A stretch of 64,000 bases of DNA from Christiangramia forsetii KT0803 (lineage in GTDB: Bacteria > Bacteroidota > Bacteroidia > Flavobacteriales > Flavobacteriaceae): contig NC_008571.1 in NCBI RefSeq assembly GCF_000060345.1, forward strand, positions 3,104,501 through 3,168,500, read 5' to 3'. Below are positions 27,853 to 53,880 of this stretch, one piece after another. Each line of letters starts with the position of its first letter. Within the stretch, counting starts at the first letter, position 1. Made by a program: the position numbers and the translations under genes. Below the pieces are notes generated by a model that saw nothing but the letters and a program-made list of their open reading frames with translations, was not told the DNA's origin and did no database searches.

Positions 27853-28080
27853 CTAATTCTGAATCTTTTCAAATTGTAAAGTTACCGGATATGATGATGC
27901 ACCCCATCCTCTGTCTTCTACAAAATCCCTGAAGGAGAGCGTAAATGATGAATCATTGTTTATATCCAATTCTGCAGTAGTTCCTTCCGGGCCCCCAAAC
28001 TATTCCTCCGGCCCCACAGCCGACACCATTCGTATGTCTTACTACAACGGCTTGTGTACAGATAAACTTTAACCTTATTT
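27853..28080 (-). pseudogene. decayed 3' end of an unknown secreted-type gene
   Basis: Read on the minus strand, the stop at 27853-27855 is preceded by a clean 42-codon frame ending GASSYPVTLQFEKIQN, with LDINNDSSFTLSFRDFVED before it. At the GGGGG run near 27990 the frame shifts and continues as AVVVRHTNGVGCGAGGIVWG. Further up it shifts again to KVKVYLYT and NVTFNPK. The pieces read as one protein broken by at least two frameshifts, with no start. The beta-rich sequence suggests a secreted protein, but I recognise no family. Base composition resembles the neighbouring frameshifted hydrolase. Confidence 0.55.
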
Positions 28081-37615: not shown

Positions 37616-37919
37616 AAAGATGGTTTATATACAAGACGAAAAAGAGAGTGCTTCGTTACATGTAGCACTGTAATGACTGGAAAATGTTAGAATAATACAG
37701 GTAAAAAAATTAATACATCTCTTGTTTTTCATGCAGATTTCTCCGCAGTCAGATCGTACTACTCAAATAAATTGATGTTGGTTGAGATCCAATCTTTAAA
37801 AAAAAATTGTTTGTAAATCTTAAAATCTCCAGTTTGAAATTTTAAACATTACTTAAAAAGACCCATAAAAAAATTTAATATTCCTAACTTTCAGAAACCA
37901 ACAAAATTAAGATCATTAC
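37616..37919. other. divergent intergenic stretch, nothing recognised
   Basis: About 300 AT-rich bases between two divergent genes. It must hold both promoters, but I see no exact TAnnTTTG match with a good -33 partner; TAACTTTC at about 37884 is one base off. No repeat or RNA is seen. Confidence 0.4.
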
Positions 37920-39356
37920 ATGGCCGAATTAAGTGAAGATGAATTTCAAAATATTCTTTCTATTCAGAATAAATGTACCCGCTTAAATCTAAACGAAAAT
38001 ATCTACGGAACTTTCGCTGAAATTGGAGCAGGACAGGAAACCGTTCGTCATTTTTTTAGGGCCGGAAACCCAAAAGGAACTATCGCTAAGACGCTTAGTG
38101 CTTATGATAAAGATTTTAGTGACGCCATTTATGGCTTGGACCCCCAAAATAGATACGTTACCATTAATCGATTAAAAAGAATGATCGATTATGAAGCTGA
38201 ATTGATCGAGCAGCGACTCTCCAGAAAAAAATATCCTGATAAATTATTCTTTAGTTACGCCAATACTGTGGCAACTATAGACTGGGCGAAAAAATATAAA
38301 GGTCACGGATGGCTGGGAATTAAATTCCAGCGGGAACCAAAACAGGAATATAGCGAGATCATGCTTCATGTTCAGTTTAATGAGAACAATGCTTCCCAGC
38401 AACAGATTAGTCTCGGGATCATGGGAGTAAATTTAATTTACGCTGCATTTTACCAAAGCGATGATCCAAAACTACTTATCAAGAAGCTCTATGACCATCT
38501 TAGCGTAGATAAAATTGAAATTGATTCTATCAATTTTAAAGGACCTGTTTTTGAAGGTCTAGACAATAGATTGATGAGTCTTGAACTTGTAAAAGAAGGA
38601 ATCACCGATGCGGTAATGTTCTCTCCGGAAGGAAACAACATTTTACCGGCAAATGTGTTATATAAGAAAAATATACTAACGCTGAGAGGTAGCTTTAGGC
38701 CGGTTACGAATTTAAACCTTCAAATGTATATAACCTCAAGAAAGCTGTTTCTTGAGCAAGAGGAGGTAAATCCCGATAAGACCGTCATAATTTTTGAAAT
38801 GACCATTAATAACCTAAAAGCTGAAGGGGAAATAGACGAGAAAGATTTTCTGGACCGTGCAGATCTCCTATGTGCTTCAGGACAAACTGTGATGATTTCC
38901 AGTTTTCAGGAATATTATAAAGTTGTAGAATATTTTTCACTTCATACTAAAAAGGAACTCGGTCTCGCCATGGGGGTAGACAATCTTGTAGACATATTCA
39001 ATGAGCGATATTACCGACACCTAAGCGGAGGTATTCTGGAAGCTTTTGGAAAAATGTTTTTCAAAAGTCTGAAAGTTTATCTCTACCCAATGAAAGATCC
39101 AGAAACCGGAGAAATCATTACGAGTAAGAACTTAAAAGTACACCCACGAGTAAAAGAACTCTATAAATTCTTTATTGACAACGGTAAAGTTATTGACATT
39201 GAGGATTACGATGAAAGTATCCTGGATATTCACCCAAGAAAAGTCTACCAGCTAATAAGGGAAGGAAATCATGAATGGGAAAATATGGTACCCGGACTCA
39301 CCGCAAAGATGATTAAAGAGAAAAATTTATTTCAAAAAGAAGAAACTACTAAGTAG
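37920..39356 (+). CDS. conserved-looking cytosolic protein of unknown function
   Basis: A 478-residue soluble protein with no signal peptide or membrane segment. I recognise no family. It looks like a folded enzyme: the N-terminal half contains FAEIGAGQETVRHFF near residue 30 and the C-terminal half MISSFQEYYKVVEYF near residue 322. Neither matches a known catalytic motif with certainty. FAEIGAGQE resembles the opening of glycine-rich nucleotide loops but does not fit GxGxxG. It runs convergently with the TrmH-family gene and overlaps it by 8 bases at the 3' ends. Confidence 0.75.
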   Translation: MAELSEDEFQNILSIQNKCTRLNLNENIYGTFAEIGAGQETVRHFFRAGNPKGTIAKTLSAYDKDFSDAIYGLDPQNRYVTINRLKRMIDYEAELIEQRLSRKKYPDKLFFSYANTVATIDWAKKYKGHGWLGIKFQREPKQEYSEIMLHVQFNENNASQQQISLGIMGVNLIYAAFYQSDDPKLLIKKLYDHLSVDKIEIDSINFKGPVFEGLDNRLMSLELVKEGITDAVMFSPEGNNILPANVLYKKNILTLRGSFRPVTNLNLQMYITSRKLFLEQEEVNPDKTVIIFEMTINNLKAEGEIDEKDFLDRADLLCASGQTVMISSFQEYYKVVEYFSLHTKKELGLAMGVDNLVDIFNERYYRHLSGGILEAFGKMFFKSLKVYLYPMKDPETGEIITSKNLKVHPRVKELYKFFIDNGKVIDIEDYDESILDIHPRKVYQLIREGNHEWENMVPGLTAKMIKEKNLFQKEETTK

Positions 39357-39813
39357 AAAATTCGGTTTTCATACCTCTATCATACATCACAATACTTCCA
39401 GCTACAGAAACATTTAAGCTTAAAGTAGACTTGAATTTCACCAGATAATGTGCTTTATCAATGGCTTGATTAGACAAGCCATGATCTTCTGCGCCCAGCA
39501 AATAAACACATCTTCTTGGATGTTTAAAATCTTCTAAATGCTCAGCAGACTCATTAAGCTCTACTCCTACCAGCATCGCTCCTTTAGGTAAATGCGCGTA
39601 GAAATCTTCAAAAGTTTCATAATGGAAATATGGCATTGCTCCTACCGCCTTATGCGTGTCACATGCCTGTTTTGAATATCGATTACCAATAGTATAAATA
39701 AAACTTGCCCCCATATTCTGGGCAGATCTCCAAAGTACACCAAGATTTTCAGGAGTTTTCCCGTTTTGAATTCCAATTCCGAAAAAACCCTGTTCCAAAT
39801 TATCTGTTTGCAT
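39349..39813 (-). CDS. TrmH/SpoU-family RNA methyltransferase, minimal form
   Basis: SAM-dependent 2'-O-methyltransferase of the SPOUT fold. It has only the catalytic core at 154 residues, without the N-terminal substrate-binding domain of RlmB or TrmH. Motif 1 is NLGVLWRSAQNMGA near residue 23. The knot-forming motif 2 is GAEDHGLSNQ near residue 108 and motif 3 is LSLNVSVAGSIVMYD near residue 132. The substrate (tRNA or rRNA) cannot be told. It overlaps the convergent unknown gene by 8 bases. Confidence 0.88.
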   Translation of the reverse strand: MQTDNLEQGFFGIGIQNGKTPENLGVLWRSAQNMGASFIYTIGNRYSKQACDTHKAVGAMPYFHYETFEDFYAHLPKGAMLVGVELNESAEHLEDFKHPRRCVYLLGAEDHGLSNQAIDKAHYLVKFKSTLSLNVSVAGSIVMYDRGMKTEFST

Positions 39814-39901
39814 AGCGCAAAAATAATATTCTCATAGCTTCATCCCTAGAACAGGTTTCTATAAGTATCGCATATTATTGAATTTCTGGTGAATCTATCG
39901 G

Positions 39902-40894
39902 TTATTTTACAGTAAACGTTTTTAATAAACCTTTGCTTTGAGGATCCGGAACTTCGGCGATCAACGCATAATTACCAGACCTAATATTAACCGTAAAATA
40001 GCCTGTCCCTCCCTGGTTCATTTCCTGCATGCCTCCCAAAAATTTGAAACCCTCTGGCGAAGGGGTTTGCAAACCTTTAGGATCTGCCCAATTCATCCAA
40101 CTATTTAATTTTGAGATATCGGCTCCTTCATCTATCCAGACCAGATGCACATCACTCATCACATAGTTCTCATGAACTTTTTGCTCTCCAAATTTTACTT
40201 TAAAGGTCTTTTCTCCCGCAGAAACCATTTCATTAAATACAATCCCGTTATTCACGTCGATATTAATAACGTAATCCGCCTTTATATCAAGTTTTGAGCT
40301 ATCTGCTTTGGTGACTTCAATTTGCTTATTCATTCCCTCGGTACTATGAAATACACCATTAGCCATTTTCACATAACATTCAATAATATAAGTTCCCGGG
40401 TCTAAATATATAGTAGACTGAGCGGTGCTTTTGGCAGATATTAAACCTACTCCGCCTTTATATTCAACTTCCTGAAACCACTCAGGTAATTTCCCGAATG
40501 CCTCACCTACCTTTTCAAATTCGCCTGCATTAATGAAATCCATACCTTCCTGAAAAGGAGGCACTATTTCTTTCTTCGTATCTTCCAGGTTTTTCCCTTC
40601 TGGATATTTATCGAAAAGAATAAAGTGAGTTTCATTAGAGTTATTTTTATACTTTATTGTTTTCCAACCAGACTTCCAGCGTTCTTTGGTATTAAACTCC
40701 ATGGCATTAGTAATTATACTAATTACCTCGTTAGAAGATTTTGACTTTGATTTAGACCCCTCTTCAATATCTGTTTTCCCAGGTTGTTCCGGTTTCTCTT
40801 TGGTATCAGATTTACAGGAAATTATGGCTATGCTCATTGAAAGAATTAAAAAAGTTCGAGCCAACGACAAAAAAAGCTTGTTATTTTTTTTCAT
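39902..40894 (-). CDS. lipoprotein of unknown function
   Basis: An exported lipoprotein of 330 residues with a lipobox ending AIISCKSD. A short charged linker is followed by beta-rich sequence that contains two similar-looking segments: STIYLDPGTYIIECYVKM near residue 165 and GTGYFTVNIRSGNYALIAEV near residue 300. These look like copper-binding-protein-like or cupredoxin-like strands, but without metal ligands I can be sure of. The start is placed at MKKNNK, which opens the signal; the longer frame adds eight residues. It stands alone. Confidence 0.75.
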   Translation of the reverse strand: MKKNNKLFLSLARTFLILSMSIAIISCKSDTKEKPEQPGKTDIEEGSKSKSKSSNEVISIITNAMEFNTKERWKSGWKTIKYKNNSNETHFILFDKYPEGKNLEDTKKEIVPPFQEGMDFINAGEFEKVGEAFGKLPEWFQEVEYKGGVGLISAKSTAQSTIYLDPGTYIIECYVKMANGVFHSTEGMNKQIEVTKADSSKLDIKADYVINIDVNNGIVFNEMVSAGEKTFKVKFGEQKVHENYVMSDVHLVWIDEGADISKLNSWMNWADPKGLQTPSPEGFKFLGGMQEMNQGGTGYFTVNIRSGNYALIAEVPDPQSKGLLKTFTVK

Positions 40895-41317
40895 TTTGAT
40901 TGGTTTTAATTGAACCAAGGAAGTTCATGAGGCGGAGCATTTACTAAATTCCGAAAAATTTGAACAAAATTCAAAGAATAACAATGTTATGATGGTATTT
41001 AACTACTTAATCCTTAATTAATTGTCAAAAAATTAAACGAGTTAAAGATTCAACAGCCTTTTCGGAAACTGTTTATTAAATTTAAAATTCGAATGATTAA
41101 ATATTTAAAATCTAAGAATTTATTGAGAATACTAAGCCTGAGTTAATATGGTAACATGCAACATAAAATCCCATAATTGAATTAATTTAATTTTACAATT
41201 ATAATAATGATAGAAGGGCTTAGGATCTTAACACTTGATACATGCAGCAATTAAAAATTTTACTCGAATATTGTTAATTAGATAAATTCCTGAAGAAATT
41301 CATCCCTAACAGGACGC
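40895..41317. other. AT-rich divergent intergenic stretch
   Basis: About 420 very AT-rich bases between divergent genes (the lipoprotein gene and glgB). It must contain promoters for both, but no exact -7/-33 pair stands out. No gene, RNA or repeat is recognised. Confidence 0.45.
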
Positions 41318-43246
41318 ATGGATAAAACTGAACCAACTATGAAGCAAAAAGTACAAGCATACTCTTTATTTTCAGATTTCGATATTTCCCTTTTTAAAGC
41401 CGGTAAGCATTACCGACTCTACGAACATTTTGGAGCTCACATCCTGGAGATTGATGGAGAGAAAGGAGTTTACTTTTCAGTCTGGGCCCCTTCAGCAAAA
41501 TCAGTTTCAGTAATTGGAGATTTTAATTACTGGAAAGAAGATGAACATCCACTGAATGTAAGATGGGATGAGAGCGGTATCTGGGAAGGATTTATTCCGG
41601 GGATACAAAAAGGAACAAAATATAAATATAAAATACATTCCAATCATAATGACCTAAAGCTGGAGAAGGCCGATCCTTACGCGCTTAAGTGTGAGCATCC
41701 GCCAAATACAGCTTCCATTGTATGGGAACTCGACTATAAGTGGAAAGATAAAAAATATATGTCTTCCAGAAAGGACAAAAATGGTCTTGACAACCCCTAT
41801 TCTATTTACGAAATACATTTGGGTTCCTGGAGAAAGAATATGGATGAAAATCGCTCGCTCACCTATGTTGAAATGGCAGACGAGCTTGTTGCTTATGTAA
41901 AAGATATCGGATTTACTCATGTAGAATTTATGCCAATTATGGAGTATCCGTATGATCCTTCATGGGGTTATCAGTTAACCGGGTACTTCGCTCCAACTTC
42001 ACGTTTTGGAGATCCTCAGGAATTCATGTACTTAATGGATGCTTTTCATCAAGCTGAAATTGGTGTTATTCTGGATTGGGTTCCCTCCCATTTTCCGGAA
42101 GACAAACATGGTCTGGGAAAATTTGACGGTACGCATCTTTACGAACACCCAGATCCTCGCAAAGGCTACCACCCAGATTGGAAAAGTTTGATCTTTAATT
42201 ACGGTAGAAACGAGGTAAGATCATTCCTGATTAGTAATGCTGTTTTCTGGCTGGATAAATACCACGCTGATGGTCTACGTGTAGATGCTGTGGCTTCTAT
42301 GCTTTATCTTGACTATTCCCGTGAAGATGGCGAATGGGAACCAAATGAACACGGCGGAAGAGAAAATCTGGATGCCGTAAGTTTTGTACGGGATCTAAAT
42401 ACTGAAATTTATAAGAGTTTTGAAGGAGTTCAAACTATTGCTGAAGAATCTACCTCCTTCCCTATGGTATCAAAACCTGTAGATGTGGGTGGACTTGGTT
42501 TCGGTATGAAATGGATGATGGGCTGGATGCATGACAGCCTGGAATACTTCAAAAAAGATCCTATTTATAGGCGACATCATCAAAATGATATCACCTTTAG
42601 TATGACTTACACTTTTTCGGAAAATTTTGTGCTTCCGCTAAGTCATGATGAAGTTGTATATGGCAAAAAATCATTGCTTGGCAGGATGCCCGGGGATGAC
42701 TGGCAAAGATTTGCCAATTTAAGGTTACTTTATTCTTATATGTTTACCCACCCGGGAGCAAAACTTCTCTTTATGGGGGCTGAAATTGGGCAATATGAAG
42801 AATGGAATTACAATACCAGCCTGGACTGGCACTTACTGGAATATGAACCCCATCAGGGAATAAAAAAAATACTTACAGATCTAAATAAACTTTATAAAAC
42901 CAGGCCCGCACTTCATGAAAAACAGTTTACGCCAGACGGGTTTGAATGGATCGCCTATGACGACAGCCAAAATTCGGTTTTAAGTTATATTAGAAAGGGA
43001 AAAGACACTAAGAAATCACTTATTGTAGTTTGTAATTTCACGCCAACGGTACTTAAAAAGTATACGATCGGACTTCCGGCGAAAGGAAAATTAAAAGAGA
43101 TTTTTAATTCCGACGAAAAGAAATATGGAGGTTCTGGCATTAGTAACGGCCCCCTCAAAATTGAAAATACCAGCTTTCACGGTAGAGATTATTCAGCACA
43201 GATCAGCATTCCGCCGCTAGGGACAGTTGTTTTTGAAATATTATGA
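41318..43246 (+). CDS. glgB: 1,4-alpha-glucan (glycogen) branching enzyme
   Basis: GH13 enzyme that adds alpha-1,6 branches to glycogen. A CBM48-type N-terminal domain (about residues 30-120, YFSVWAPSAKSVSVIGDFN) precedes the catalytic barrel. Conserved region II is DGLRVDAVASMLYLDYSR near residue 320 with the nucleophile aspartate, region III is IAEES with the acid/base glutamate near residue 373, and region IV is LSHDEV near residue 443. At 642 residues it is complete. It is followed 63 bases later by a GH31 glucosidase on the same strand. No glgA, glgC or glgP lies nearby. Confidence 0.95.
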   Translation: MDKTEPTMKQKVQAYSLFSDFDISLFKAGKHYRLYEHFGAHILEIDGEKGVYFSVWAPSAKSVSVIGDFNYWKEDEHPLNVRWDESGIWEGFIPGIQKGTKYKYKIHSNHNDLKLEKADPYALKCEHPPNTASIVWELDYKWKDKKYMSSRKDKNGLDNPYSIYEIHLGSWRKNMDENRSLTYVEMADELVAYVKDIGFTHVEFMPIMEYPYDPSWGYQLTGYFAPTSRFGDPQEFMYLMDAFHQAEIGVILDWVPSHFPEDKHGLGKFDGTHLYEHPDPRKGYHPDWKSLIFNYGRNEVRSFLISNAVFWLDKYHADGLRVDAVASMLYLDYSREDGEWEPNEHGGRENLDAVSFVRDLNTEIYKSFEGVQTIAEESTSFPMVSKPVDVGGLGFGMKWMMGWMHDSLEYFKKDPIYRRHHQNDITFSMTYTFSENFVLPLSHDEVVYGKKSLLGRMPGDDWQRFANLRLLYSYMFTHPGAKLLFMGAEIGQYEEWNYNTSLDWHLLEYEPHQGIKKILTDLNKLYKTRPALHEKQFTPDGFEWIAYDDSQNSVLSYIRKGKDTKKSLIVVCNFTPTVLKKYTIGLPAKGKLKEIFNSDEKKYGGSGISNGPLKIENTSFHGRDYSAQISIPPLGTVVFEIL

Positions 43247-43309
43247 ACAAGCCTAAAATAATTCATGGGAATAAACTTCTTTTGTAACTAGCTAAAAGAT
43301 TGCAAGACT

Positions 43310-45709
43310 ATGATTACCAATACAGAACTAGAACATAAGGGAAATTTATATCCCTCCAGATTAATATCATTTGAGCACGATCAGGACACCGTTAACTTCA
43401 TTACAAAAAACGGGGTTAGGCTTGAAATTACAGTACTTCGGGATAATATGCTGCGTATGCGGTATTCCACCAACGGAATTTTTGACCACGATTTTTCCTA
43501 TGCTGTAGATGAGAATCATCCTCATGGATTTAATCGGCTTGAGGTGGAAGAAAACGAAACCCATGTTGTCATCACCACAGAGAAGTTTCTTTGCAAAGTA
43601 GCAAAAGACGATCTTAGAGTTGGGATGTACGAACTAAATGGAAAAATAATTCTCGAAGATGAACTTGGTTTTCACTGGGAAGAAAGCTTTGAATTTGGAG
43701 GGAATTTCGTAAAAATGAGCAAATCATCAAAAGATCAGGAAAATTTCTTTGGTCTTGGTGATAAACCTACCAATTTCAATCTTAAAGGAAAACGTCTCAG
43801 TTTATGGAATACAGACCAGTATGCTTACGGGAAAGACACCAATGAACTTTATAAGGCCGTCCCTTTTTATATGGGACTTCACGGAAATCTTTCCTACGGA
43901 ATATTCTTTGACAACACCTTTAAAACGCACTTCGATTTTTGTAGTGAAAGAAGAAATGTAACCAGTTTCTGGGCAGATGGTGGAGAGATGAACTATTATT
44001 TCATCTATGGCCCGCAGATGTCTGATGTGCTTACCACCTATACAGACCTTACCGGAAAACCTGAATTACCACCCATGTGGGCATTAGGATTTCACCAGTG
44101 TAAATGGAGCTATTATCCGGAAAGTAAGGTAAAAGAGATCACTTCAAGATTTAGGGAATTGAATTTCCCATGCGACGCCATTTACCTTGATATTGATTAT
44201 ATGGATGGTTTCCGATGTTTTACATGGAACAAAGAGTTTTTTCCAGATCCAAAGCGAATGGTAAGGGAACTGGAAGAAGATGGCTTTAAAACAGTAGCTA
44301 TTATAGATCCGGGAATTAAAATCGACCTCAATTATAACATTTTTAAGGAAGCCCTGGAAAATGATTATTTCTGCCGGAGAGCTGACGGCCCTTATATGAG
44401 AGGAAAAGTATGGCCGGGTGAATGTTATTTTCCAGATTTTACTAATCCTGAAGTTCGGGAATGGTGGAGTGGATTATACCGGGAACTCATTGGAGATATT
44501 GGTGTAAAAGGGGTTTGGAATGACATGAACGAACCTGCCGTAATGGAAGTTCCGGGAAAAACTTTCCCGTTGGATGTAAGACATGATTATGACGGTCACA
44601 GATGCAGCCATCGCAAAGCCCATAATATTTATGGAATGCAAATGGCCCGGGCGACTTATGAAGGTGTCAAGAAGTTTAATTATCCAAAAAGACCTTTCAT
44701 AATTACCCGTGCGAATTATTCCGGCGGACAACGATATACTTCAACATGGACAGGAGATAATATTGCTACCTGGGAGCATTTATGGCTGGCGAACATTCAA
44801 ATACAGAGGCTGTGCATGAGCGGAATGAGCTTTTCAGGATCTGATATTGGTGGTTTTGCCGAACAACCTTCCGGAGAACTTTATACCAGGTGGTTGCAAT
44901 TAGGTGTTTTTCATCCATTCTGCAGGGTTCACTCTTCAGGAGACCACGGAGAACAGGAACCATGGTTCTTTGGAGAAGAAGTCCTTGATATTTCAAGGAA
45001 ATTTGTAGAATTAAGATACCAGCTTTTACCATATCTCTATACGGCATTTTATAAATACATACAAGAAGGATCGCCAATTCTAAAACCACTGGTATATTTT
45101 GACCAGGAAGATGTTCAAACTCATTACAGATCTGATGAGTTTATCTTCGGAAATCAGATGCTGGTTTGTCCTATTCAGGAACCAAATGTTCAGGGAAGAA
45201 GAATGTATATTCCCCGCGGAAAATGGTACAACTTCTGGAATGACAAGTTAGTTACCGGAGGCAAGGAAATGTGGGTAGATGCACCTTTGGAGATCATTCC
45301 TATATATATTAAAGAAGGATCTGTAATTCCTAAATATCCCGTTCAGCAATATGTTGATGAACTCGATATTGAAGAAATAAGTCTCGATATTTATTATAAA
45401 CTGGGTAAAGAAAGTTCAGAATTTTACGAAGATGCACATGATGGTTATGAATATCGCCAAAATATTTACAGCCTGCGTACCTTTAAACTTACGGGTAGAG
45501 AGGATACAGTAGTTGTGCAGCAGCATAAAAGCGGAAGATATTCAGCCCCCTACACCAGATTTAAACTGAAATTTCATGGATTGCCTTTTGAGATCAAAAA
45601 AGTGATCTATGAGAATGAAAAAATATCTTTAGAACAACTTCAGTATAATGCTGAAGAAAAATCTATCATAATTGATAAGGAATTCAGTGATATCCAACTA
45701 GTAGGATAA
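43310..45709 (+). CDS. GH31-family alpha-glucosidase
   Basis: Glycoside hydrolase family 31, most likely an alpha-glucosidase acting on maltose-type or glycogen-derived oligosaccharides. No signal peptide is visible, so it should be cytosolic, in keeping with glycogen metabolism. The catalytic nucleophile is in GVWNDMNEPAV near residue 403-412. The acid/base aspartate is in TWTGDN near residue 480, followed by SGSDIGGF near residue 508. N-terminal galactose-mutarotase-like and C-terminal beta-domains flank the barrel, and 799 residues is normal. It follows glgB by 63 bases, so the two are probably one transcript. Confidence 0.93.
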   Translation: MITNTELEHKGNLYPSRLISFEHDQDTVNFITKNGVRLEITVLRDNMLRMRYSTNGIFDHDFSYAVDENHPHGFNRLEVEENETHVVITTEKFLCKVAKDDLRVGMYELNGKIILEDELGFHWEESFEFGGNFVKMSKSSKDQENFFGLGDKPTNFNLKGKRLSLWNTDQYAYGKDTNELYKAVPFYMGLHGNLSYGIFFDNTFKTHFDFCSERRNVTSFWADGGEMNYYFIYGPQMSDVLTTYTDLTGKPELPPMWALGFHQCKWSYYPESKVKEITSRFRELNFPCDAIYLDIDYMDGFRCFTWNKEFFPDPKRMVRELEEDGFKTVAIIDPGIKIDLNYNIFKEALENDYFCRRADGPYMRGKVWPGECYFPDFTNPEVREWWSGLYRELIGDIGVKGVWNDMNEPAVMEVPGKTFPLDVRHDYDGHRCSHRKAHNIYGMQMARATYEGVKKFNYPKRPFIITRANYSGGQRYTSTWTGDNIATWEHLWLANIQIQRLCMSGMSFSGSDIGGFAEQPSGELYTRWLQLGVFHPFCRVHSSGDHGEQEPWFFGEEVLDISRKFVELRYQLLPYLYTAFYKYIQEGSPILKPLVYFDQEDVQTHYRSDEFIFGNQMLVCPIQEPNVQGRRMYIPRGKWYNFWNDKLVTGGKEMWVDAPLEIIPIYIKEGSVIPKYPVQQYVDELDIEEISLDIYYKLGKESSEFYEDAHDGYEYRQNIYSLRTFKLTGREDTVVVQQHKSGRYSAPYTRFKLKFHGLPFEIKKVIYENEKISLEQLQYNAEEKSIIIDKEFSDIQLVG

Positions 45710-45727
45710 ATCAGTAAGGCAAAAATT

Positions 45728-45866
45728 TAAAAGAGGTTGTGTAAAAACTCCCGTTTTCGTCAAGCTGAATTTGTTTCAGCTTCTAATTGTTTTTGATTTT
45801 CAATTATTTAAGATCCTAAACTGAATTCAGAATGACGTTTTTCAGCTTTTTACACTACCTCTTTTA
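45728..45866. repeat. 139-base inverted-repeat element (MITE-like)
   Basis: Terminal inverted repeats of 20 bases (TAAAAGAGGTTGTGTAAAAA at 45728-45747, its reverse complement with one mismatch at 45847-45866). The inside is also an imperfect palindrome: CGTCAAGCTGAATTTGTTTC on the left and, reversed, CGTCATTCTGAATTCAGTTT on the right. It has no coding capacity. It sits between two convergent genes, where a long hairpin could end transcription from both sides. Confidence 0.75.
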
Positions 45867-45884
45867 ATATTTGTATTAAGTATA

Positions 45885-48800
45885 TTAGATAGGCTTATTT
45901 TCTACCGAATCTGCTAAGCTGTAGCCGTAAAATTTCTCAAAAGAACTATAAAATATCTTAGGACTTGAAAAGCCGGATTTATAAGCTACCTCCATTATAT
46001 TCATATCGGTATGCTGCATGAGGTCCCTGGCATATTTAAGCTTGGTGAACTCCATGAAATCCTGGGGAGAAAGATTTACTAAACTCTTTAACTTCATAAA
46101 TAGCGTATTGCTGGATAATCCCAAGGCTGCACTGAGGTCATGAACCGAAAAATTCTCGTTCCTTATATTTTGTACCACCACATCATTAAGATTTGTTATG
46201 AATTTTTCATCAACTTCGCTTCTAAACTTAACCTCACCTCCTTCTGCATGAAATTTTATATAAGAGTTTCTTAAATCTTTTTGCCATATCAGGATCTTAG
46301 TAATCTTTGCAAGTAGAAGATTCACATCTATTGGCTTTTGAACCAATTCAGTCATATCTTCTAATTGATTATCGTCAAATACCTGGTTCTCATCAACCAC
46401 CAAAAAGATATTGATATGGTTTAGACCAATATTTCTCTTAAGCATTTTTGCCAGCTGAAAGACATTTATATCCGGTAGAACTGTTGCTGAAATTACAATA
46501 TCGGGAAATATCATTCCCGCTTTTTCAATCCCTTCTTCTGCATTTCCAGCCTGATAGATTTGGCAATATTTACCAATACTGTTTACCAGTAAATTCCGTG
46601 TCTCTGTATCATTTTCTATGATCAGGATTTTGCCTTCACTAAGATTCGTAATCTCTGCAGGGAACTCTGTTTTTTCCGAGGTTTTGGCTTTTTCAGCTTT
46701 AAATATAGCCGCTGCCCTCTCCGGTACTTTTCGATAAGCTTCTTTCTTATTCTTAAGAACCGCCGTAAAAGTTGAACCCTCATTCTTTTCGGTTTCATAA
46801 CTAAAACTTCCGCCTGCTTTAACAATTAGATCCTGTGCTGTAAGAATATATCTTAAACCGCTCTTATCTCGGAATTTCATTTTAGGGTTCAATGATTTTT
46901 TCTTTTCAAGAATCTTAATATCATACTCGGGAATTCCCCTTCCATTATCGGTTATTTGCAATTTAAGATCTCCACCACTGGTTTGAATTATATTTACGAT
47001 AAGCTTCCCTTCTTTAAATGAATAGCCGGCACTTCCTGATATAAGGCTGAAAAAAATCTTATCCAGCATTTCTATACTATAATAGAAATCTGAATCTTCC
47101 CATTGATTATTCATGATCATTTCCAGGTTCTTAGTTTTATAAACCGGCTCAATCTCCTTAACCATCTGCGGCAGATGAGCTTTGAAATTGATCTTTGAAA
47201 TCTCATAAACAGATTCCTGGTAGTTGAAATTAAGAATCTGATTAAAGAGTTCATCGATCCTTGCCGCATAACGCTGAAGATCTTCGGTATTTCCTGTTTC
47301 AGTAGAAGACGATATTTTGCTTAAAGATTGTACCGCACTTTCTACGGGTTTCTTAAATTCTTTTTGAAGCTGATCTCTTAGTGCTGCTTTAGCCAACAGA
47401 TCGGCGTTTTTAGAACGACTTACGAATACAAATACAAAGATCGCAATCATTGACAGCACACTAATCCCCATAAATAGATACACACTGCTTATAGTCCCTC
47501 CCACTGCGCTTACATTCACTTTGAGTTCTCTCGGTCTGGTCCAGGCGGCATCACCAAGTTTTGCACGGACTTTAAAAGTGTAATTCCCGGGAGCAAGATT
47601 TGAATAGCTTGCAGTGTTCACTTGTGAAGGTTTACTCCATTCATCATCCAAACCTTCCATTTTCCAGGAATATAAAATAGAATCTGTCGCAAGATGTGAG
47701 ATTCCGGAAAATTCAATTTTAAAACCTTTTGCTTCATCAAGACTTACCCGGTCTTTTCCTGCCAGTTGGATATTTGCCTTTTTCTCATCTTTTTCTGCAG
47801 GCAATATCATTTTTTTAAATTCCAGTCTCGGCTTAAATTCCTGTTGCGCCAACATCGTTTTCGATTTAAAGACATTAACACCCTTAGAACTTCCTATTAC
47901 CAATGTCCCGTTTTGAAGCTTTGTAATATCTGAAGCAAGTTCATTCGTGGTTAATCCGTTTAATTCTGAAAATACTTTTATAGATTCCTCATTGGGATCA
48001 TAAAAACTCAATCCCTTATCTGAAGCCAGCCATAATCCATCATTAAAATCACCTTCAATAGCTGTAATATTATTTGAGGGCAATCCAGATTCCTGGTCCA
48101 GTACTTTCAATTGTTCCGCTTCAAAATCATAGATCAACAAGCCAGTACCTTCAGTCGCTAATAGTCCGAGACCTTCTCGCGTTATGTTTAAACCGTTTAT
48201 GGAATAGTATAATAGATCGTTATTCGCTGTTAGAGCATCCAAATCTGTAATTCTACCCGAGTACGGATCTAAAGAATGCACCCTGGATTTCGTAGCAAGG
48301 ATCATCTTTTTAGGCCCTAGCTCGGCAATAGCTTTTACTCCCTTTACTGGATATGTTTTTATTTCATTATTTGGCTTAATCATACTTAGATGCCCATCTT
48401 CTCCCCCTATCCAAACATTCTTTTTCGCATCTACAAAAAGAGAACTAGCCGACTGGATCTTTATTTTATAAAGCGCATCTATAGAATAATGGGCGCGCAG
48501 CAACGTATTGATATTGATCTTATAAACGCCATCATCTGCCGTGGCAACCCATAAATGTTCGTCAATTGAAACCAGATCTGTAATATTATCTGGCTTACTC
48601 ATTTGTCGGTTATAATTGAGGTTTTTAATATGTCTCCAACGGTTGGTCTCCGGATTCCATATACTTAAGCCCTTTCCCGTTCCAAACCAGACGTTTCCTT
48701 TAGAATCGGTTTCTGAAGCGGTTATAAAATCATCTGACAGACTGGAATATTTTGTCGGATCATTTTTAAGCTTATCTACTCCAAAACCTGAAACATTCTG

Positions 48801-49748
48801 GAGATACAGCCCTTCTTTAGCCACGATCCATAGCAGATTTTGATCATTAAGATGCGTTGCATAAACATTATCTGGATAGCCATGACCAGCATCATTTACC
48901 AGATTTAGATTTTTATCCAAACGGAAAATTCCTGAACCGTTTGTAGATACTATTATTTTATCATCAAATTTTTCGAGATCTGTAATCTCTTCCCGGGAGA
49001 GGGTATATGGAAGGGAGTATATTTTCTGAACATTCTTTAATTCTGAATCTGCTTTAAACAAACCTCCGGATTTCGTTCCGAAGATTATCATATTCTCCAA
49101 TGAAATAGCACTCGTGATATTCAGGTTCTGATAATAACCCATATCAATCTTATTGAATTTACCGGAACGTAAATTAATCGTAAGGACTCCATTGGGGCCG
49201 GCAAAAACAATATTATTATTGAATAATACAATATCTGAAGCTATTGTATTCTCTGAAATAAACCGTGATATTCCAAAATCGGTTTTATCAGAATCGATAT
49301 TCAGTTTAAAAATACCGTTCTCTGCAGCGATCCAAAGTTGCTGCCCTGGATCTTCTTTCATGGCATACACCTTCCCGGTGATAGTACTTACAAGACGAAA
49401 TTCATCATTTTCAGGATAAAATATTGCCAAACCATTTGTTCCGGAAAGCCAAATTTTATTCTTGCTATCGGTATAGGTTGCAATAAAGCCGTCACCAATC
49501 TCTCGTGGAACTCCCCTAAATTTATTATAATCCCGTACTTCAATAGAGTTATACTGCATCACCTTTACAGGAGTGGTAATCCAAAGATTATCTCCGGAAT
49601 CCTGCTGGATGTGTACCTTCTCGGCTTTAATAAATGGCTGAATTGCCTTAACTCTTTGAACTGAATTTTTATTCTGCCCGATGGTTTTACCGGTAACTCC
49701 CAAAATGATACATAGGAAAAGCAGAATTCTCAATTTAAAATGCCCCAA
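45885..49748 (-). CDS. propeller-type hybrid sensor/regulator with degenerate kinase and receiver
   Basis: A 1287-residue one-piece regulator. Signal peptide 1-24, then two-component propeller repeats to about 680 (for example NGLAIFYPEND, WFGTGKGLSIWNPE), a Y_Y_Y domain (about 685-745), a membrane helix (about 753-775), kinase-like region (about 785-1010), receiver-like domain (about 1035-1150) and an AraC-type HTH (about 1195-1283). The layout is that of hybrid two-component systems that control glycan use. The phosphotransfer residues are gone: the HisKA helix reads KEFKKPVESA where HEFRTPL is expected, the N-box reads LISGSAGYSF with no asparagine, the G2 region reads KSGLRYIL, and the receiver reads PDIVISATVLPD where the phosphorylated aspartate should be. 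It converges on glgB/GH31, but regulation of them is only a guess. Confidence 0.9.
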   Translation of the reverse strand: MGHFKLRILLFLCIILGVTGKTIGQNKNSVQRVKAIQPFIKAEKVHIQQDSGDNLWITTPVKVMQYNSIEVRDYNKFRGVPREIGDGFIATYTDSKNKIWLSGTNGLAIFYPENDEFRLVSTITGKVYAMKEDPGQQLWIAAENGIFKLNIDSDKTDFGISRFISENTIASDIVLFNNNIVFAGPNGVLTINLRSGKFNKIDMGYYQNLNITSAISLENMIIFGTKSGGLFKADSELKNVQKIYSLPYTLSREEITDLEKFDDKIIVSTNGSGIFRLDKNLNLVNDAGHGYPDNVYATHLNDQNLLWIVAKEGLYLQNVSGFGVDKLKNDPTKYSSLSDDFITASETDSKGNVWFGTGKGLSIWNPETNRWRHIKNLNYNRQMSKPDNITDLVSIDEHLWVATADDGVYKININTLLRAHYSIDALYKIKIQSASSLFVDAKKNVWIGGEDGHLSMIKPNNEIKTYPVKGVKAIAELGPKKMILATKSRVHSLDPYSGRITDLDALTANNDLLYYSINGLNITREGLGLLATEGTGLLIYDFEAEQLKVLDQESGLPSNNITAIEGDFNDGLWLASDKGLSFYDPNEESIKVFSELNGLTTNELASDITKLQNGTLVIGSSKGVNVFKSKTMLAQQEFKPRLEFKKMILPAEKDEKKANIQLAGKDRVSLDEAKGFKIEFSGISHLATDSILYSWKMEGLDDEWSKPSQVNTASYSNLAPGNYTFKVRAKLGDAAWTRPRELKVNVSAVGGTISSVYLFMGISVLSMIAIFVFVFVSRSKNADLLAKAALRDQLQKEFKKPVESAVQSLSKISSSTETGNTEDLQRYAARIDELFNQILNFNYQESVYEISKINFKAHLPQMVKEIEPVYKTKNLEMIMNNQWEDSDFYYSIEMLDKIFFSLISGSAGYSFKEGKLIVNIIQTSGGDLKLQITDNGRGIPEYDIKILEKKKSLNPKMKFRDKSGLRYILTAQDLIVKAGGSFSYETEKNEGSTFTAVLKNKKEAYRKVPERAAAIFKAEKAKTSEKTEFPAEITNLSEGKILIIENDTETRNLLVNSIGKYCQIYQAGNAEEGIEKAGMIFPDIVISATVLPDINVFQLAKMLKRNIGLNHINIFLVVDENQVFDDNQLEDMTELVQKPIDVNLLLAKITKILIWQKDLRNSYIKFHAEGGEVKFRSEVDEKFITNLNDVVVQNIRNENFSVHDLSAALGLSSNTLFMKLKSLVNLSPQDFMEFTKLKYARDLMQHTDMNIMEVAYKSGFSSPKIFYSSFEKFYGYSLADSVENKPI

Positions 49749-49951
49749 ATTTCAAGTTTTAAATGTTGAAAACTGGGAATAATTTAGGGATAATCAGAGT
49801 TATAAACCGCTGTTTTATAAAGTTTTGAGCGCCACTTATTAAGACGATATTAACAATAAAAAGAAAGAATTTTCTTACAAAAATTAGAAATTCATATTTT
49901 CGAGAAATTTTGATAATTTCCCATAAAAGGTTTAATTAAAAAAATGATTTT

Positions 49952-50590
49952 TTAGGAAATAATCTTGATACCTGATGAAGTTCCAATTCTATGAACTCCA
50001 AGATTTATATACTTCATCGCTGTTTCAGCATCTTTAATACCACCTGAAGCTTTGATCTTTATTTCTTCTCCAACTACTTTCTTCATAATTTTAATATCAT
50101 CGTAGCTCGCACCACGACTTCCAAAACCGGTAGACGTTTTTATAAAGTCTGCTCCTGCCTGCATTGCTAATTCACAGGCCTTCATAATTTCCTTTTCAGA
50201 TAAATAACAGGTTTCGATAATTACTTTAAGAACACAATTTTCGATGGCCTTTTTAATGTATAAAATCTCCCTTTGAACTTCAGCGGATTTCCCGTCTTTT
50301 AAAAACCCAATATTTATCACCATATCAATTTCATCTGCGCCATCCTGGACAGACTTTACAGCTTCAGCAATTTTTGCTTCGGTAAAGCAAGCTCCCAAAG
50401 GAAAACCAATTGTTGCTGCAATTTTCACATCAGTTTCTACCAATTCATTTTTAGCGACTTTTACTCGTGAACTATTCACGCAAACTGCATAAAACCCAAA
50501 CTTCTTCGCCTCAAAACATAATTTTTGTATCTCCTCACTTTGCGCTGTTGCTGCCAGCAAGGTGTGGTCTATGTATTTGTTGATATTCAT
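49952..50590 (-). CDS. deoC: deoxyribose-phosphate aldolase
   Basis: Class I aldolase that splits 2-deoxyribose 5-phosphate into glyceraldehyde 3-phosphate and acetaldehyde in deoxynucleoside breakdown. The Schiff-base lysine is in FIKTSTGF near residue 150, the second active-site lysine in IKASGGI near residue 180, and the aspartate in DEIDMVINIG near residue 90. At 212 residues it is the compact form. It starts 6 bases after an unknown gene, and both are probably one transcript. No other deo genes are nearby. Confidence 0.95.
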   Translation of the reverse strand: MNINKYIDHTLLAATAQSEEIQKLCFEAKKFGFYAVCVNSSRVKVAKNELVETDVKIAATIGFPLGACFTEAKIAEAVKSVQDGADEIDMVINIGFLKDGKSAEVQREILYIKKAIENCVLKVIIETCYLSEKEIMKACELAMQAGADFIKTSTGFGSRGASYDDIKIMKKVVGEEIKIKASGGIKDAETAMKYINLGVHRIGTSSGIKIIS

Positions 50591-50596
50591 ATATAA

Positions 50597-51232
50597 TTAG
50601 AAGTCCAGTTTGGTTAGCTCAATAATTCCGGTTCCCTTGGTAGTTACAGATATCCATAGATCTGCATCCCCTGCTTTTAGATTGGATAATTCCAGATTTT
50701 CGAGAGAGCCGATAAGATGAATTCCTTCTTTAGCCTCCAGTTTGTTCTCGAGCTTTTCATTTAAAGATTTTATATGCTTTTCAATATGAGGCATAAAATC
50801 AAAATTCATCTTCTTCTTAAATTTTCCGTACATCCATTTATTCAAAACGGTTTCCAATAGCTGATCTGCAATCCAATTTTTGGTTTTTCCATCTATCAGA
50901 TAATCTTTCAGGGACACCCTCTGTTGTCCTTTATCTAGATCCAGAGAAGCATGAAAAAGAATCTTTACCTGTTTATTCTTAAAAAGACTGGTTAGGGTTT
51001 GAAGGTTTATATTGAGAAGAAAATCATAAGCTTCCAGTTGGCTTTTTTCAATAGAAACATCCAGGATTTGAGCATAATTAGACTTTTCACCATTAGAATC
51101 TTCTTTACTTATAATCTCTCCAATCATTTTTGACCGTAACAATTCATCTATCACAGAATAGCCTATCTTGACAGGAAGTGTAACATCTATATTCGTATCT
51201 GAAATTCTTTCGGTATTTTCTATTTTCTCCAT
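50597..51232 (-). CDS. unknown protein co-transcribed with deoC, faintly DUF4403-like
   Basis: A 211-residue protein with no signal peptide or membrane helix. It alternates beta-strands and helices. Segments such as IDVTLPVKIGYSVIDELL near residue 15 and HLIGSLENLELSNLKAG near residue 175 faintly resemble DUF4403 proteins, which have a lipid-binding-like fold, but the match is by eye only. It ends 6 bases before deoC, so it is probably the first gene of that transcript. Confidence 0.7.
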   Translation of the reverse strand: MEKIENTERISDTNIDVTLPVKIGYSVIDELLRSKMIGEIISKEDSNGEKSNYAQILDVSIEKSQLEAYDFLLNINLQTLTSLFKNKQVKILFHASLDLDKGQQRVSLKDYLIDGKTKNWIADQLLETVLNKWMYGKFKKKMNFDFMPHIEKHIKSLNEKLENKLEAKEGIHLIGSLENLELSNLKAGDADLWISVTTKGTGIIELTKLDF

Positions 51233-51450
51233 TCTTCTCTTTTAATAAGCTTTTTAGTAAGGTAAATAAAAGATTTACATATGTAGAATTGGAAACTAAT
51301 TTTAATAGATAATTATAATTATGCCGAAAAGGAAAGACGCTTTGAATAATTATCGATGTGATAAAAAGTTTATTTCCAACCTACGCTGAAAGTCCAAATT
51401 TAATTTCCTTATTTGAATTAGTATAAAATAACCATAGACCCTAAACGAAA

Positions 51451-51472
51451 AAATACCCTGTTCCGGGTATTT
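51451..51472. terminator. perfect hairpin, possible bidirectional terminator
   Basis: AAATACCC / GGGTATTT, an 8-base-pair stem with a 6-base loop, followed by ATTTTTA on the plus strand and preceded by A-rich sequence, so it could work from either side. It lies about 200 bases from the nearest gene end. Confidence 0.5.
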
Positions 51473-51486
51473 ATTTTTATAAAGAA

Positions 51487-51522
51487 AAAGGGGCCGATCT
51501 CCCTACAACACCAAGCCCCTTT
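51487..51522 (-). terminator. hairpin with long loop, possible terminator or small RNA end
   Basis: AAAGGGGC / GCCCCTTT, an 8-base-pair GC-rich stem with a 20-base loop, followed by a T-rich tail on the minus strand. It could terminate transcripts from the amidohydrolase gene at some distance (147 bases) or be part of a small RNA. Confidence 0.45.
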
Positions 51523-51668
51523 AATTTTTAACTAAATTCTAAAACAAATATATATTTTGTAAACCGCAGTGGTTAACTCTAAAAATTTATTTATTAGCTT
51601 AATACGTTAATTAAACAAGACAACGTATTGATTATCCAGCAATTAAGCAAGCGGCTTACTATTCGTTA

Positions 51669-53102
51669 TTAATCTTTAAAATCTTCTGCATCCTTTACAT
51701 TTCTTAGTGTTCCATTTCTCATAACATGTGAAATAGATCTAAGATTTGAAATATCTTCTGAAGGATCTTCTTCTAAAATTATTAGATCAGCAATCTTACC
51801 AGATTCCAGTGTACCAAAATCCTCCAGCCTATCCATTGCCATTGCTCCATTTTTGGTTGCCATTATAATTAGATCTTTAGCTGAAATACCGGCCTGTTGC
51901 ATAGCTTCAATTTCGTCGTAATATGAGATTCCGTGAAGCGTTCCGGGATTTCCTGCATCTGTACCCACTACGATTGTTCCTCCCGCATCATAAACCATTT
52001 TTAGATTTGCTATCATGTTTTGCTTCTCCTTTTTAAGTCTTTTATCCATCATAGGTAATCTGCTTTTTAAAGCTTCAGCTCGCTCATCATTGAGAAACTT
52101 TCTAAAAGCTGAAGCATTTTGAAGCATGCTTCTTGTTTTTGAATCAACAACCGCATTAAGATCGCTTATTTCAAAATTCTGCTCAAAAAGGGCTTTATAG
52201 GTATTATAATAACCTCTCCCCACTACGATAGTAGGATTGTAAAGGGTTTTATTTGTTTTCATTAAACGAAGAAATTCTTCATCTATCAAAGTGTCACTCA
52301 CACTATGCACCAAAAGTTTAGCTCCCAGCTCCATAGCCATTTTGGCTTCCTTTAGATTTGTTGCATGAGCAATCATTTTATTATTCTGATTTTTAATCTC
52401 CTCTGCAACTCCTTTAATTTTATGAAGGAATTCTGGGTCGTCCGGTTTAAAACCCCAAATTTTAACACCCGTAGTACCGGCATTTGAATTTTCGATAACT
52501 GCATTCCTGCCTTGCTCTTCTGAACCCAGATGCACAAAAGTATTCTTGCCATTTACATTAAAAATTCCGATCAATTCTTCGGGAGCAGGAGTAATAAGTG
52601 GTCCGGCTGAAGCCGTATGGGGTGCAAGCGGATTATCATCGTTTATTTTCTGAAACTCAAGAGTCCAGATGTAATCTCCAACATCATATACTCCGGTTAT
52701 TCCAGACCGCAAATATGTCTGATAGTATCTTTCAGGATGATTTTTTTGATATTCTATCACATTTTCCAACGGAATAGTATCTCGAAGGTCTGCCGCATCC
52801 GGACGGGAATCAAAGAACCCGGTCTGGAAAAAATGCATATGTGCATCAATGAGACCCGGCATTATATATTTTCCGGAAACATCAATTATTTGCGCATTTT
52901 CAGGTATTCTCATCTCATTCGCACCTACACTACTAATTTTATTATTCTCAATCACTATAGTACCATTTTCAATACTCTTACCGTTTCCATCGAATATCGT
53001 TGCCCCCTTAAGAGCAATTGTAGACATCTCACTCTGAGCATTACTAATAGAAATAAAGAAAACTGAAAAAAATAAATAAATTAATAGTGCCTTGCTTTCC
53101 AT
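51669..53102 (-). CDS. exported amidohydrolase-family protein
   Basis: Metal-dependent hydrolase with a TIM-barrel fold. A signal peptide ends near residue 22 (SNAQS), so the enzyme is probably periplasmic. Metal ligands are visible in MPGLIDAHMHFF near residue 78 (HxH), in KMIAHATN near residue 243 and in GTDAGNPGTLHG near residue 380 (the final aspartate). It belongs to the imidazolonepropionase-like group, which includes prolidase-like peptidases. The substrate is unknown and the neighbours do not suggest one. At 477 residues it is complete. Confidence 0.87.
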   Translation of the reverse strand: MESKALLIYLFFSVFFISISNAQSEMSTIALKGATIFDGNGKSIENGTIVIENNKISSVGANEMRIPENAQIIDVSGKYIMPGLIDAHMHFFQTGFFDSRPDAADLRDTIPLENVIEYQKNHPERYYQTYLRSGITGVYDVGDYIWTLEFQKINDDNPLAPHTASAGPLITPAPEELIGIFNVNGKNTFVHLGSEEQGRNAVIENSNAGTTGVKIWGFKPDDPEFLHKIKGVAEEIKNQNNKMIAHATNLKEAKMAMELGAKLLVHSVSDTLIDEEFLRLMKTNKTLYNPTIVVGRGYYNTYKALFEQNFEISDLNAVVDSKTRSMLQNASAFRKFLNDERAEALKSRLPMMDKRLKKEKQNMIANLKMVYDAGGTIVVGTDAGNPGTLHGISYYDEIEAMQQAGISAKDLIIMATKNGAMAMDRLEDFGTLESGKIADLIILEEDPSEDISNLRSISHVMRNGTLRNVKDAEDFKD

Positions 53103-53340
53103 ATGATAAATATAAAATGTTCAGGTAATTTACAATTATATCTGATAGAAGCATCTGTACAAAAATGCATTTTTCATTCTATAAGAGTTACAGAAATTAT
53201 CACATAGACATTTACAGCACAGATGCTAATCATTAACATTATTTCACGAAAGTTTTTAAGATATTCCCAAATAACTTATGCTTAACAGATTATTCATTAT
53301 CAGTGAGTTAATTTTGAGTAACCAAAAAAATATGATAATT

Positions 53341-53880
53341 ATGAAAAATTTAAGCAAGTTGGGTCTATTGGTAATGTTTATTACATTAATTAGTTGTGGA
53401 CCCGGAAAAAGCGGAAGCGGAGATGTAGATGCTTTGATGTCGGATACCAGAGATGCTAAAGCTGCGATGATCCAGGCAGACAATAATTTACAGGAATTAT
53501 TTAGTACTTCTGCAGGTTATGCTATTTTTCCAAATGTTGGAAAAGGTGCCTATATTATTGGAGGAGCTTCCGGGAACGGTATTGTTTACGAAAAAGGTAC
53601 AATGGTAGGTTATTCTAATTTAAAGCAAGTAGATGTAGGACTTCAGGTAGGTGGAAAAGCTTATAGAGAGGTTCTATTTTTCAAAACTCAGGAAGCACTG
53701 AATGATTTTAAAGATGGTGAATATGAACTTTCAGGAAATGCTACCGCCGTAATTATTGAAAAAGGTAAATCAAAAACTATCAAGTTTGAAGATGGAATTG
53801 CAGTCGCTACAATGCCAAAAGCGGGAGCTATGGTTGGAGTATCAGTGGCCGGACAAAGATTCGGATATACTGCTAAGTAA
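53341..53880 (+). CDS. SYLF (Ysc84-like) lipid-binding domain lipoprotein
   Basis: A 179-residue lipoprotein with a lipobox ending LISCGPG near residue 18. The SYLF domain covers most of the rest, with YAIFPNVGKGAYIIGGASG near residue 60, and VGLQVGGKAYREVLFF, which are family signatures. SYLF proteins bind phospholipid in eukaryotes; the bacterial role is unclear. The start is placed at MKNLSK. A TAATTTTG -7-like element at 53309-53316 lies between this start and an upstream in-frame ATG at 53278, which supports the shorter form. Confidence 0.85.
   Translation: MKNLSKLGLLVMFITLISCGPGKSGSGDVDALMSDTRDAKAAMIQADNNLQELFSTSAGYAIFPNVGKGAYIIGGASGNGIVYEKGTMVGYSNLKQVDVGLQVGGKAYREVLFFKTQEALNDFKDGEYELSGNATAVIIEKGKSKTIKFEDGIAVATMPKAGAMVGVSVAGQRFGYTAK

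Follow-up and report, generated by a model that had tools for sequence, protein, structure and literature searches.

The window analysed here is a 64,000-nucleotide stretch of Christiangramia forsetii KT0803 (NC_008571.1, positions 3,104,501 to 3,168,500 of the forward strand). On its minus strand, at 45885-49748, lies a gene for a protein of 1287 residues with a TTG start codon and no internal stop. The protein carries the parts of a hybrid two-component system (HTCS) in one chain: sensor, membrane helix, HisKA, HATPase, receiver (REC) and AraC-type DNA-binding domain, with HisKA assigned by alignment alone, the receiver from a match below the Pfam cut-off and the membrane helix by eye. It is nearly certainly a selectively maintained pseudo-HTCS, as judged from its sequence and those of its relatives. 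These comparisons support the loss of the catalytic residues, selection on the gene, a single origin of the loss, the retention of residues of an inhibitory latch and a likely change of the residues that contact DNA. On balance we lean towards the view that the protein has been kept as a membrane-bound one-component regulator, in which the latch would be opened by a shape change driven by the sensor.

Loss of the phosphorelay residues in Christiangramia

Each of the 24 Christiangramia genomes (the genus was formerly named Gramella) contains one full-length ortholog without an internal stop; identity to the window protein is 46-79% across the 23 genomes other than that of C. forsetii. Two of these genomes (G004 and G008) have an additional match to a canonical HTCS at 24-27%. 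The closest named records come from five Christiangramia species, and the sixth match is a distant HTCS of the Prolixibacteraceae. A search of 397 genomes of the family gave matches in 17, of which two are Christiangramia and the remaining 15 each belong to a different further genus. These 15 relatives (L060-L074) are 31-41% identical over the cytosolic part and are canonical in every case. Among 395 genomes of the phylum there were three matches: the genome of C. forsetii itself, one of the same 15 relatives and one further protein that is canonical by its motifs. No pseudo relative beyond the genus was found in either set, in which the best three candidates per genome were scored and matches to E 1e-50 were considered; given these limits, distant pseudo-HTCSs may exist.

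We counted the phosphorelay residues in an alignment of the 24 orthologs with the 15 canonical relatives. The phospho-His of HisKA is present in all 15 relatives and absent from all orthologs, which have Lys (19) or Gln (5) in its place; in the window protein it is Lys796 (47361-47363). The N box, which reads SLISGSAG in the window protein (residues 901-908, 47025-47048), has lost both of its Asn residues in 24/24 orthologs (Ser in 22 and Gly in 2 at the first; Gly in 21, Ala in 2 and Ser in 1 at the second) as well as its Lys, all of which are found in 15/15 relatives. The last Gly of the G2 box is likewise missing from every ortholog and present in every relative, and the first (residue 962) is kept in at most one ortholog. 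The N-box Asn and Lys and the G2 glycines form the metal and phosphate side of the ATP site. In the receiver, the phosphorylated Asp is replaced in 24/24 orthologs (Ala in 21, Thr in 2, Gly in 1; Ala1088 in the window protein, 46485-46487) versus none of the relatives, and the switch residues are eroded, with the Thr kept in 4/24 and the beta5 Tyr in 2/24, each present in 15/15 relatives. From these losses we infer that the kinase is probably dead.

Other parts of the same domains persist. The Asp and both Gly of the G1 box and the middle Gly of the G2 box are found in all 24 orthologs, as are the receiver Pro and a Glu or Asp at the first acidic position of the receiver, and the receiver Lys is kept in 20/24 orthologs and 15/15 relatives. 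An earlier note on this DNA, made from the single sequence, had reported a HisKA without histidine, an N box without asparagine and an Ala in place of the phospho-Asp, and all three hold in the window protein and, as losses, in the whole genus. Its wider statement, that all canonical phosphorelay residues are gone, stands for the chemistry of phosphorylation; it does not stand for the scaffold of the ATP site, where the G1 box and middle G2 glycine remain. The invariant G1 box would suit a regulator switched in the cytosol, either by a nucleotide or small ligand at the pseudo-ATPase or pseudo-receiver or by modification of a Ser, Thr or Lys in place of Asp phosphorylation. Ligand binding and covalent modification are both described as controlling pseudo-receivers in the available text of a 2025 review (PMC12632262). 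Such switching seems improbable here, since the N box has lost its Asn and Lys residues and the G2 box two of its three glycines, and no specific ligand site is indicated.

The same review text gives base rates for each loss, with His absent from 722 of 76,471 HisKA domains and Asp from 3,111 of 152,269 receivers. The joint loss of His and Asp in all genomes of a genus is not expected by chance. An alignment artefact was rejected: the flanking positions (the Glu after the His, the G1 box and the receiver Pro) align in 24/24 orthologs, and canonical paralogs keep their motifs at these places. A recent loss in one strain is ruled out by the absence of the residues from all 24 genomes.

For the origin of the losses we used a tree of 48 proteins, comprising the 24 pseudo proteins, the 15 canonical relatives and nine outgroup HTCSs, from a quick search without bootstrap. 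A branch with a Shimodaira-Hasegawa-like approximate likelihood ratio (SH-aLRT) support of 100 separates the pseudo proteins from all others, their stem measures 0.96 changes per column, and the canonical relatives adjoin them (support 98); this stem is long, two rows of the outgroup (L004 and L014) are marked as long, and the letter composition of six rows is odd. Inspected by eye, the outgroup has the His, N-box Asn and Asp in 9/9, and since the relatives are canonical in 15/15 as well, the losses are derived. They also predate the diversification of the genus, because the earliest branch (L037) already lacks the catalytic residues. This pattern supports a single loss of the phosphorelay on the Christiangramia stem. 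The earlier note had proposed looking for a clade without the His and Asp in which the AraC helices remain, and all 24 genomes agree with that description.

The gene is under strong constraint. Ratios of nonsynonymous to synonymous substitution (dN/dS), calculated by the Nei-Gojobori method over nine close ortholog pairs, are 0.058-0.096 for the whole gene and, where computable, at most 0.18 for each domain, except for two short linkers (0.02-0.26 and 0.04-0.81). The propeller has values of 0.05-0.10 across the pairs. Three pairs are unsaturated, and in these dN/dS is 0.15-0.18 for the DHp, 0.07-0.11 for the HATPase, 0.06-0.11 for the receiver, 0.01-0.05 for the AraC domain, 0.05-0.06 for the propeller and 0.42-0.81 for one short linker; the remaining six pairs have dS values of 1.3-1.9, and several of their per-domain ratios are not computable. 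A dead kinase without function would not be expected to stay this constrained. The lost catalytic residues and the long stem branch could be taken as marks of a decaying pseudogene, which is very improbable given full-length open frames in 24/24 genomes, the dN/dS of 0.058-0.096 and replacement residues that have become fixed, such as R1213S and T1214N in 24/24. On the open frames and dN/dS we rejected this explanation, and the low values in every major domain likewise bear out the view of the earlier note that the frame is conserved and not decaying.

A separate observation concerns another HTCS of the family, L039 (G026:C1:28224-31208), which retains the His, Asn and Asp and has a degenerate G1 box (INYGKLIP, not D-x-G-x-G). 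Kinase erosion may thus occur elsewhere too.

The latch, the likely DNA-contact residues and the locus

In Bacteroides HTCSs, the AraC domain is held off the DNA by the alpha3-beta4 loop of the receiver, whose motif S/C-H-I-P contacts an Asp and a Lys of the DNA-binding domain, both situated in the recognition helix or close to it (Gao et al. 2024, PMC11253607). Replacement of the S/C and H gave DNA binding without phosphorylation in that work, and substitutions in the loop made BT4124 and BT4663 bind DNA independently of phosphorylation. In the window protein, alignment places the loop at residues 1110-1113 (NHIN, 46410-46421), and the Asp and Lys were located by their spacing (39 residues in both) at residue 1180 (46209-46211) and, in the first recognition helix, residue 1219 (46092-46094). 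Across the orthologs the N, H, D and K are present in 24/24, the I in 23/24 and the P in 1/24; in the 15 canonical relatives, N is found in 14 (Thr in one) and H, I, P, D and K in all 15. Latch columns that are invariant in the relatives are therefore kept in 4 of 5 cases, against a background of 32/100 for invariant columns as a whole (11/48 in the receiver and 21/52 in the AraC region; p about 0.04). The latch was assessed from sequence rather than from a structure model because our models do not support an arrangement of the domains.

This latch is also where the main rival explanation finds its evidence. The protein could be a constitutive, membrane-tethered DNA binder, its AraC domain freed by the Pro-to-Asn change in the latch, with dose set through its own promoter as the sole control. 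The Pro is lost in 23/24 orthologs, loop substitutions freed BT4124 and BT4663 from phosphorylation (PMC11253607), and a conserved element before the gene, found in 24/24 orthologs and with no other match in the own genome, is what autoregulation would allow. We consider this explanation unlikely nonetheless, as the S/C and H positions, at which replacement released the Bacteroides proteins, here match the canonical relatives (N and H), and a propeller dN/dS of 0.05-0.10 is unexpected for a sensor that is no longer used.

Four residues of the AraC domain have been replaced in 24/24 orthologs (R1213S, T1214N, K1252M and N1262S). By their positions in the helices these residues probably face the DNA, which suggests that DNA-contact residues have likely changed and then become fixed, and that the regulator has been retargeted.

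The genomic setting differs in parallel. We compared the loci of the canonical relatives, taken to 20 kb, with that of L060, which is counted in the totals and on which the domains were named. Downstream of the HTCS, the first gene is homologous to the L060 SusC and the second to its SusD in 13/15 loci, and homologs of its GH3 and sulfatase occupy the third and fourth places, respectively, in 12 loci each; L068 has its SusC homolog as the second gene, and L071 has no match among the first four. No GH3 match above 40% identity to the L060 reference occurs in the 24 Christiangramia genomes, versus 63-84% in the 11 other canonical loci with GH3 in third place. For SusC, no Christiangramia protein exceeds 38% identity among the matches listed (E<=1e-100), a figure to be read with the 37% by which the SusC of the canonical locus L066 itself resembles the reference. 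The nine nearby window proteins tested (36110-53877) contain no Plug or SusD domain.

A site TTTGACAATNNNNAAACCNTTTNTGAT, first read by eye from the stretches downstream of the canonical genes, stands before the next gene after the HTCS with at most three mismatches in 13/15 canonical loci (L060-L074) and is likely a binding site of these HTCSs. It has 0 matches in the C. forsetii genome at <=3 mismatches, where a reversed control also has 0.

A putative phosphate-free mechanism and its alternatives

In the favoured mechanism, a former glycan-type HTCS would have lost its phosphorelay once, on the Christiangramia stem, while its propeller and Y_Y_Y sensor continued to read a periplasmic signal. 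The pseudo-DHp and pseudo-ATPase would serve as a dimer and a scaffold that transmits force, and the pseudo-receiver would hold the first recognition helix of the AraC domain in a clamp formed by the H-I and D-K contacts of the latch. Movement of the dimer driven by the sensor, and not phosphorylation of an Asp, would release this clamp, and DNA specificity would have shifted away from sites of the ancestral type towards new ones, possibly including the gene's own promoter. The phosphorylation-free signalling proposed in the earlier note is thus well supported by the absence of the His and Asp in 24/24 orthologs and the low dN/dS. Its suggestion of a ligand-driven shape change running from the propeller to the DNA-binding domain we regard as the likeliest mechanism, with ligand sensing, the opening of the latch and the targets all being presumed. 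A more specific version has slightly less than an even chance in our estimation. Here the whole phosphorelay would have become a mechanical linkage, in which sensor, dead kinase and dead receiver act as one allosteric rod that opens the old latch without a phosphoryl group, following the move off the ancestral glycan locus and the gain of new DNA targets.

Several observations weigh against the latch-opening mechanism. The latch Pro is found in 1/24 orthologs (Asn in 21/24) versus 15/15 relatives, so the clamp may be weakened. With the latch Asp and Lys located within the recognition helix or close to it, their retention may serve DNA binding and not the clamp. Retention of the latch residues exceeds the background only modestly and is suggestive at best. 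The propeller keeps 35 of the 89 columns that are invariant in the canonical relatives and the receiver 11/48; with so few kept, the sensor may have changed its ligand or may no longer have one. As to selection, the dN/dS values stand without a control gene, the pairs with unsaturated dS (L033, L034 and L035) all come from one small subclade, and in these pairs the DHp is the least constrained major domain (0.15-0.18). The invariant G1 box is compatible with nucleotide binding, and our survey of possible partners covered HTCSs rather than stand-alone kinases.

The last of these points concerns the possibility that the protein works by way of a partner. It would then either form a heterodimer with an active histidine kinase or HTCS or serve as its decoy, comparable to the pairs DivL-CckA and RetS-GacS. 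Pseudo-histidine kinases are described in the available text of PMC12632262 as integrated in two-component networks, and the DHp is well conserved within the clade (mean identity 0.69). This seems a poor prospect all the same, though a little better than cytosolic switching, as only 12 of 26 DHp columns invariant in canonical relatives are kept and there is no close canonical paralog in the same genome. The three canonical HTCSs found there are at best 26-28% identical to the window protein and occur in 2, 3 and 10 of the 24 Christiangramia genomes at the thresholds used. Since none is genus-wide, none can be an obligate partner.

Bacteroides HTCSs such as BT4663, BT3049 and BT4124 have the same order of parts as the window protein: propellers, Y_Y_Y, membrane helix, DHp, HATPase, REC and AraC helix-turn-helix (HTH). 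A relation in sequence and fold is detectable to BT4663 and BT3049, and the latch H, I, D and K are shared. Unlike these HTCSs, the window protein is without the phospho-His, N-box Asn and phospho-Asp, and no SusCD pair was recognised beside its gene. The S/CHIP-DK latch is a feature of most HTCSs rather than of all, and an adjacent SusC/SusD locus is usual without being universal. The canonical Flavobacteriaceae HTCSs (L060-L074) are its nearest relatives by the tree and differ in keeping the His, both Asn, the Asp, Thr, Tyr and Lys (15/15), in their locus and in their recognition-helix residues.

The recognisable kinase and receiver folds, absent catalytic residues and evidence of maintenance place the protein among the pseudo-histidine kinases and pseudo-receivers, and its sensor and DNA-binding domain, apparently without a phosphorelay between them, place it among the transmembrane one-component regulators. 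It shares the loss of catalytic residues on a retained fold with DivL, RetS, ShkA, RitR, NblR and ChxR. In the cases known to us, such proteins usually have one dead domain within a larger network, whereas here both are dead in a single chain from sensor to DNA-binding domain. Transmembrane transcription regulators, among them ToxR and CadC, likewise combine a one-component design with work from the membrane, and we know of none that has a derived kinase-receiver relay between the membrane and the DNA-binding domain. A survey of these regulators is given in PMC10269533.

Proteins of this kind have precedents in the pseudo-kinases and pseudo-receivers described before. Among HTCSs, BT4236 of B. 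thetaiotaomicron has Gln at the phospho-His position, and a 2024 paper suggested that it is independent of phosphorylation (PMC11253607). Unlike the window protein, BT4236 has a non-consensus latch (CSIP-EK) and is cited, in the available text of that paper, as a single protein and not as a clade. In the literature we searched, we found no description of a genus-wide joint loss with kept latch residues and retargeting. The available text of the review PMC12632262 calls the on/off switching of bacterial pseudo-receivers a mystery. With sensor, dead kinase, dead receiver and output in one chain and 15 canonical relatives as a natural control, phosphate-free HTCS signalling becomes directly testable, on the ground of environmental marine bacteria. 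If the linkage is real, comparison of the clade with its canonical relatives would separate the residues needed to transmit force from those needed only for chemistry. Annotating this gene as, for example, a 'sensor histidine kinase/response regulator' would be wrong across the whole genus.

Domain layout, neighbourhood and promoter region

Along the protein, a probable signal peptide (residues 1-25, 49674-49748, read by eye from the translation) is followed by the propeller sensor region (residues 27-640, 47829-49670), identified by Pfam Reg_prop, by sequence to the PDB relatives 4a2l and 3v9f and by Foldseek. The Y_Y_Y domain (residues 689-746, 47511-47684; Pfam) and a single membrane helix, read by eye at about residues 755-778 (47415-47486), lead into the pseudo-DHp, a HisKA-like two-helix region (residues 786-880, 47109-47393; alignment and model), and the pseudo-HATPase (residues 881-1003, 46740-47108). 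The pseudo-receiver (residues 1039-1160, 46269-46634) and the AraC-type HTH_18 domain (residues 1205-1278, 45915-46136; Pfam) complete the chain. Reg_prop (3 stretches), Y_Y_Y, HATPase_c, HTH_18 and HTH_AraC score above their Pfam cut-offs; Response_reg, at 24.7 bits versus a cut-off of 30.2, is below, and the Pfam search of the protein reported no HisKA model at E<=10. Relatives with solved structures, as found by sequence, are sensor domains of B. thetaiotaomicron HTCSs and the HTCS fragment 12aw, which corresponds to the receiver and the DNA-binding part.

AlphaFold models built from six sequences are of moderate confidence, with mean predicted local distance difference test (pLDDT) values of 68 and 69 and predicted template modelling (pTM) scores of 0.45 each. 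Their secondary structure includes a pair of DHp helices, an alpha/beta sandwich, the AraC helices and a receiver-like fold in which a fourth helix is not clear. Foldseek matched the cytosolic model to histidine kinases, including ShkA, HK853 and the pseudokinase DivL, and the sensor model foremost to BT4663 (4a2m, E 1.1e-35), with low TM-scores of 0.33-0.39. The models thus give moderate support to the predicted folds and not to the arrangement of the domains.

TTG is the start codon at the matching place (49746-49748) in 24/24 orthologs, and upstream of it the open frame contains no ATG, GTG or TTG in 23/24. That this start is kept although the ortholog proteins fall to 46% identity hints at selection for weak translation or at another role of the codon.

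A GH31 alpha-glucosidase-like gene (43310-45709, plus strand) is the convergent neighbour in 24/24 orthologous loci. It adjoins glgB, encoding an alpha-glucan branching enzyme (41318-43246, plus strand), and glgB comes after GH31 in the window and in 10/10 longer Christiangramia neighbourhoods examined. Beside glgB there is a maltokinase cap domain gene in both loci tested (L078 and L011) and a GlgE in L078, the one locus tested for it; the protein at the matching place in the window has no Pfam match. On the other flank, a deoC homolog was found in 7/24 loci within the 1.5 kb covered. Convergent genes share no promoter, and the linkage gives a lead, not a result, as to a role in alpha-glucan metabolism.

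The element TTGTTAATATCGTCTTAATAA lies in the promoter region on the minus strand (49836-49856), 87 nt before the start codon. Its degenerate 21-nt pattern TTGTTNATATCNTNTTRATAA is present in 23/24 orthologs, with its end 85-88 nt upstream of the TTG, and its core TGTTNATATC is found in 24/24. The element could be a promoter, a candidate site for binding of the regulator to its own gene, or both. The 21-nt pattern has no other match in the C. forsetii genome at <=2 mismatches (4 for a reversed control pattern), and the search for a regulon by DNA motif found no target there beyond the possible self-site; a search in the window alone is uninformative, with 1 match versus 0.79 expected. No match to the core flanks the 15 canonical genes, in the stretches on either side, among the matches listed. 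The 11-nt core TTGTTNATATC has a second copy in the window, at 27956, and occurs in ten other Christiangramia neighbourhoods at the promoter-region place only. In two orthologs (L015 and L017), a second copy of the 10-nt core lies close to the start codon.

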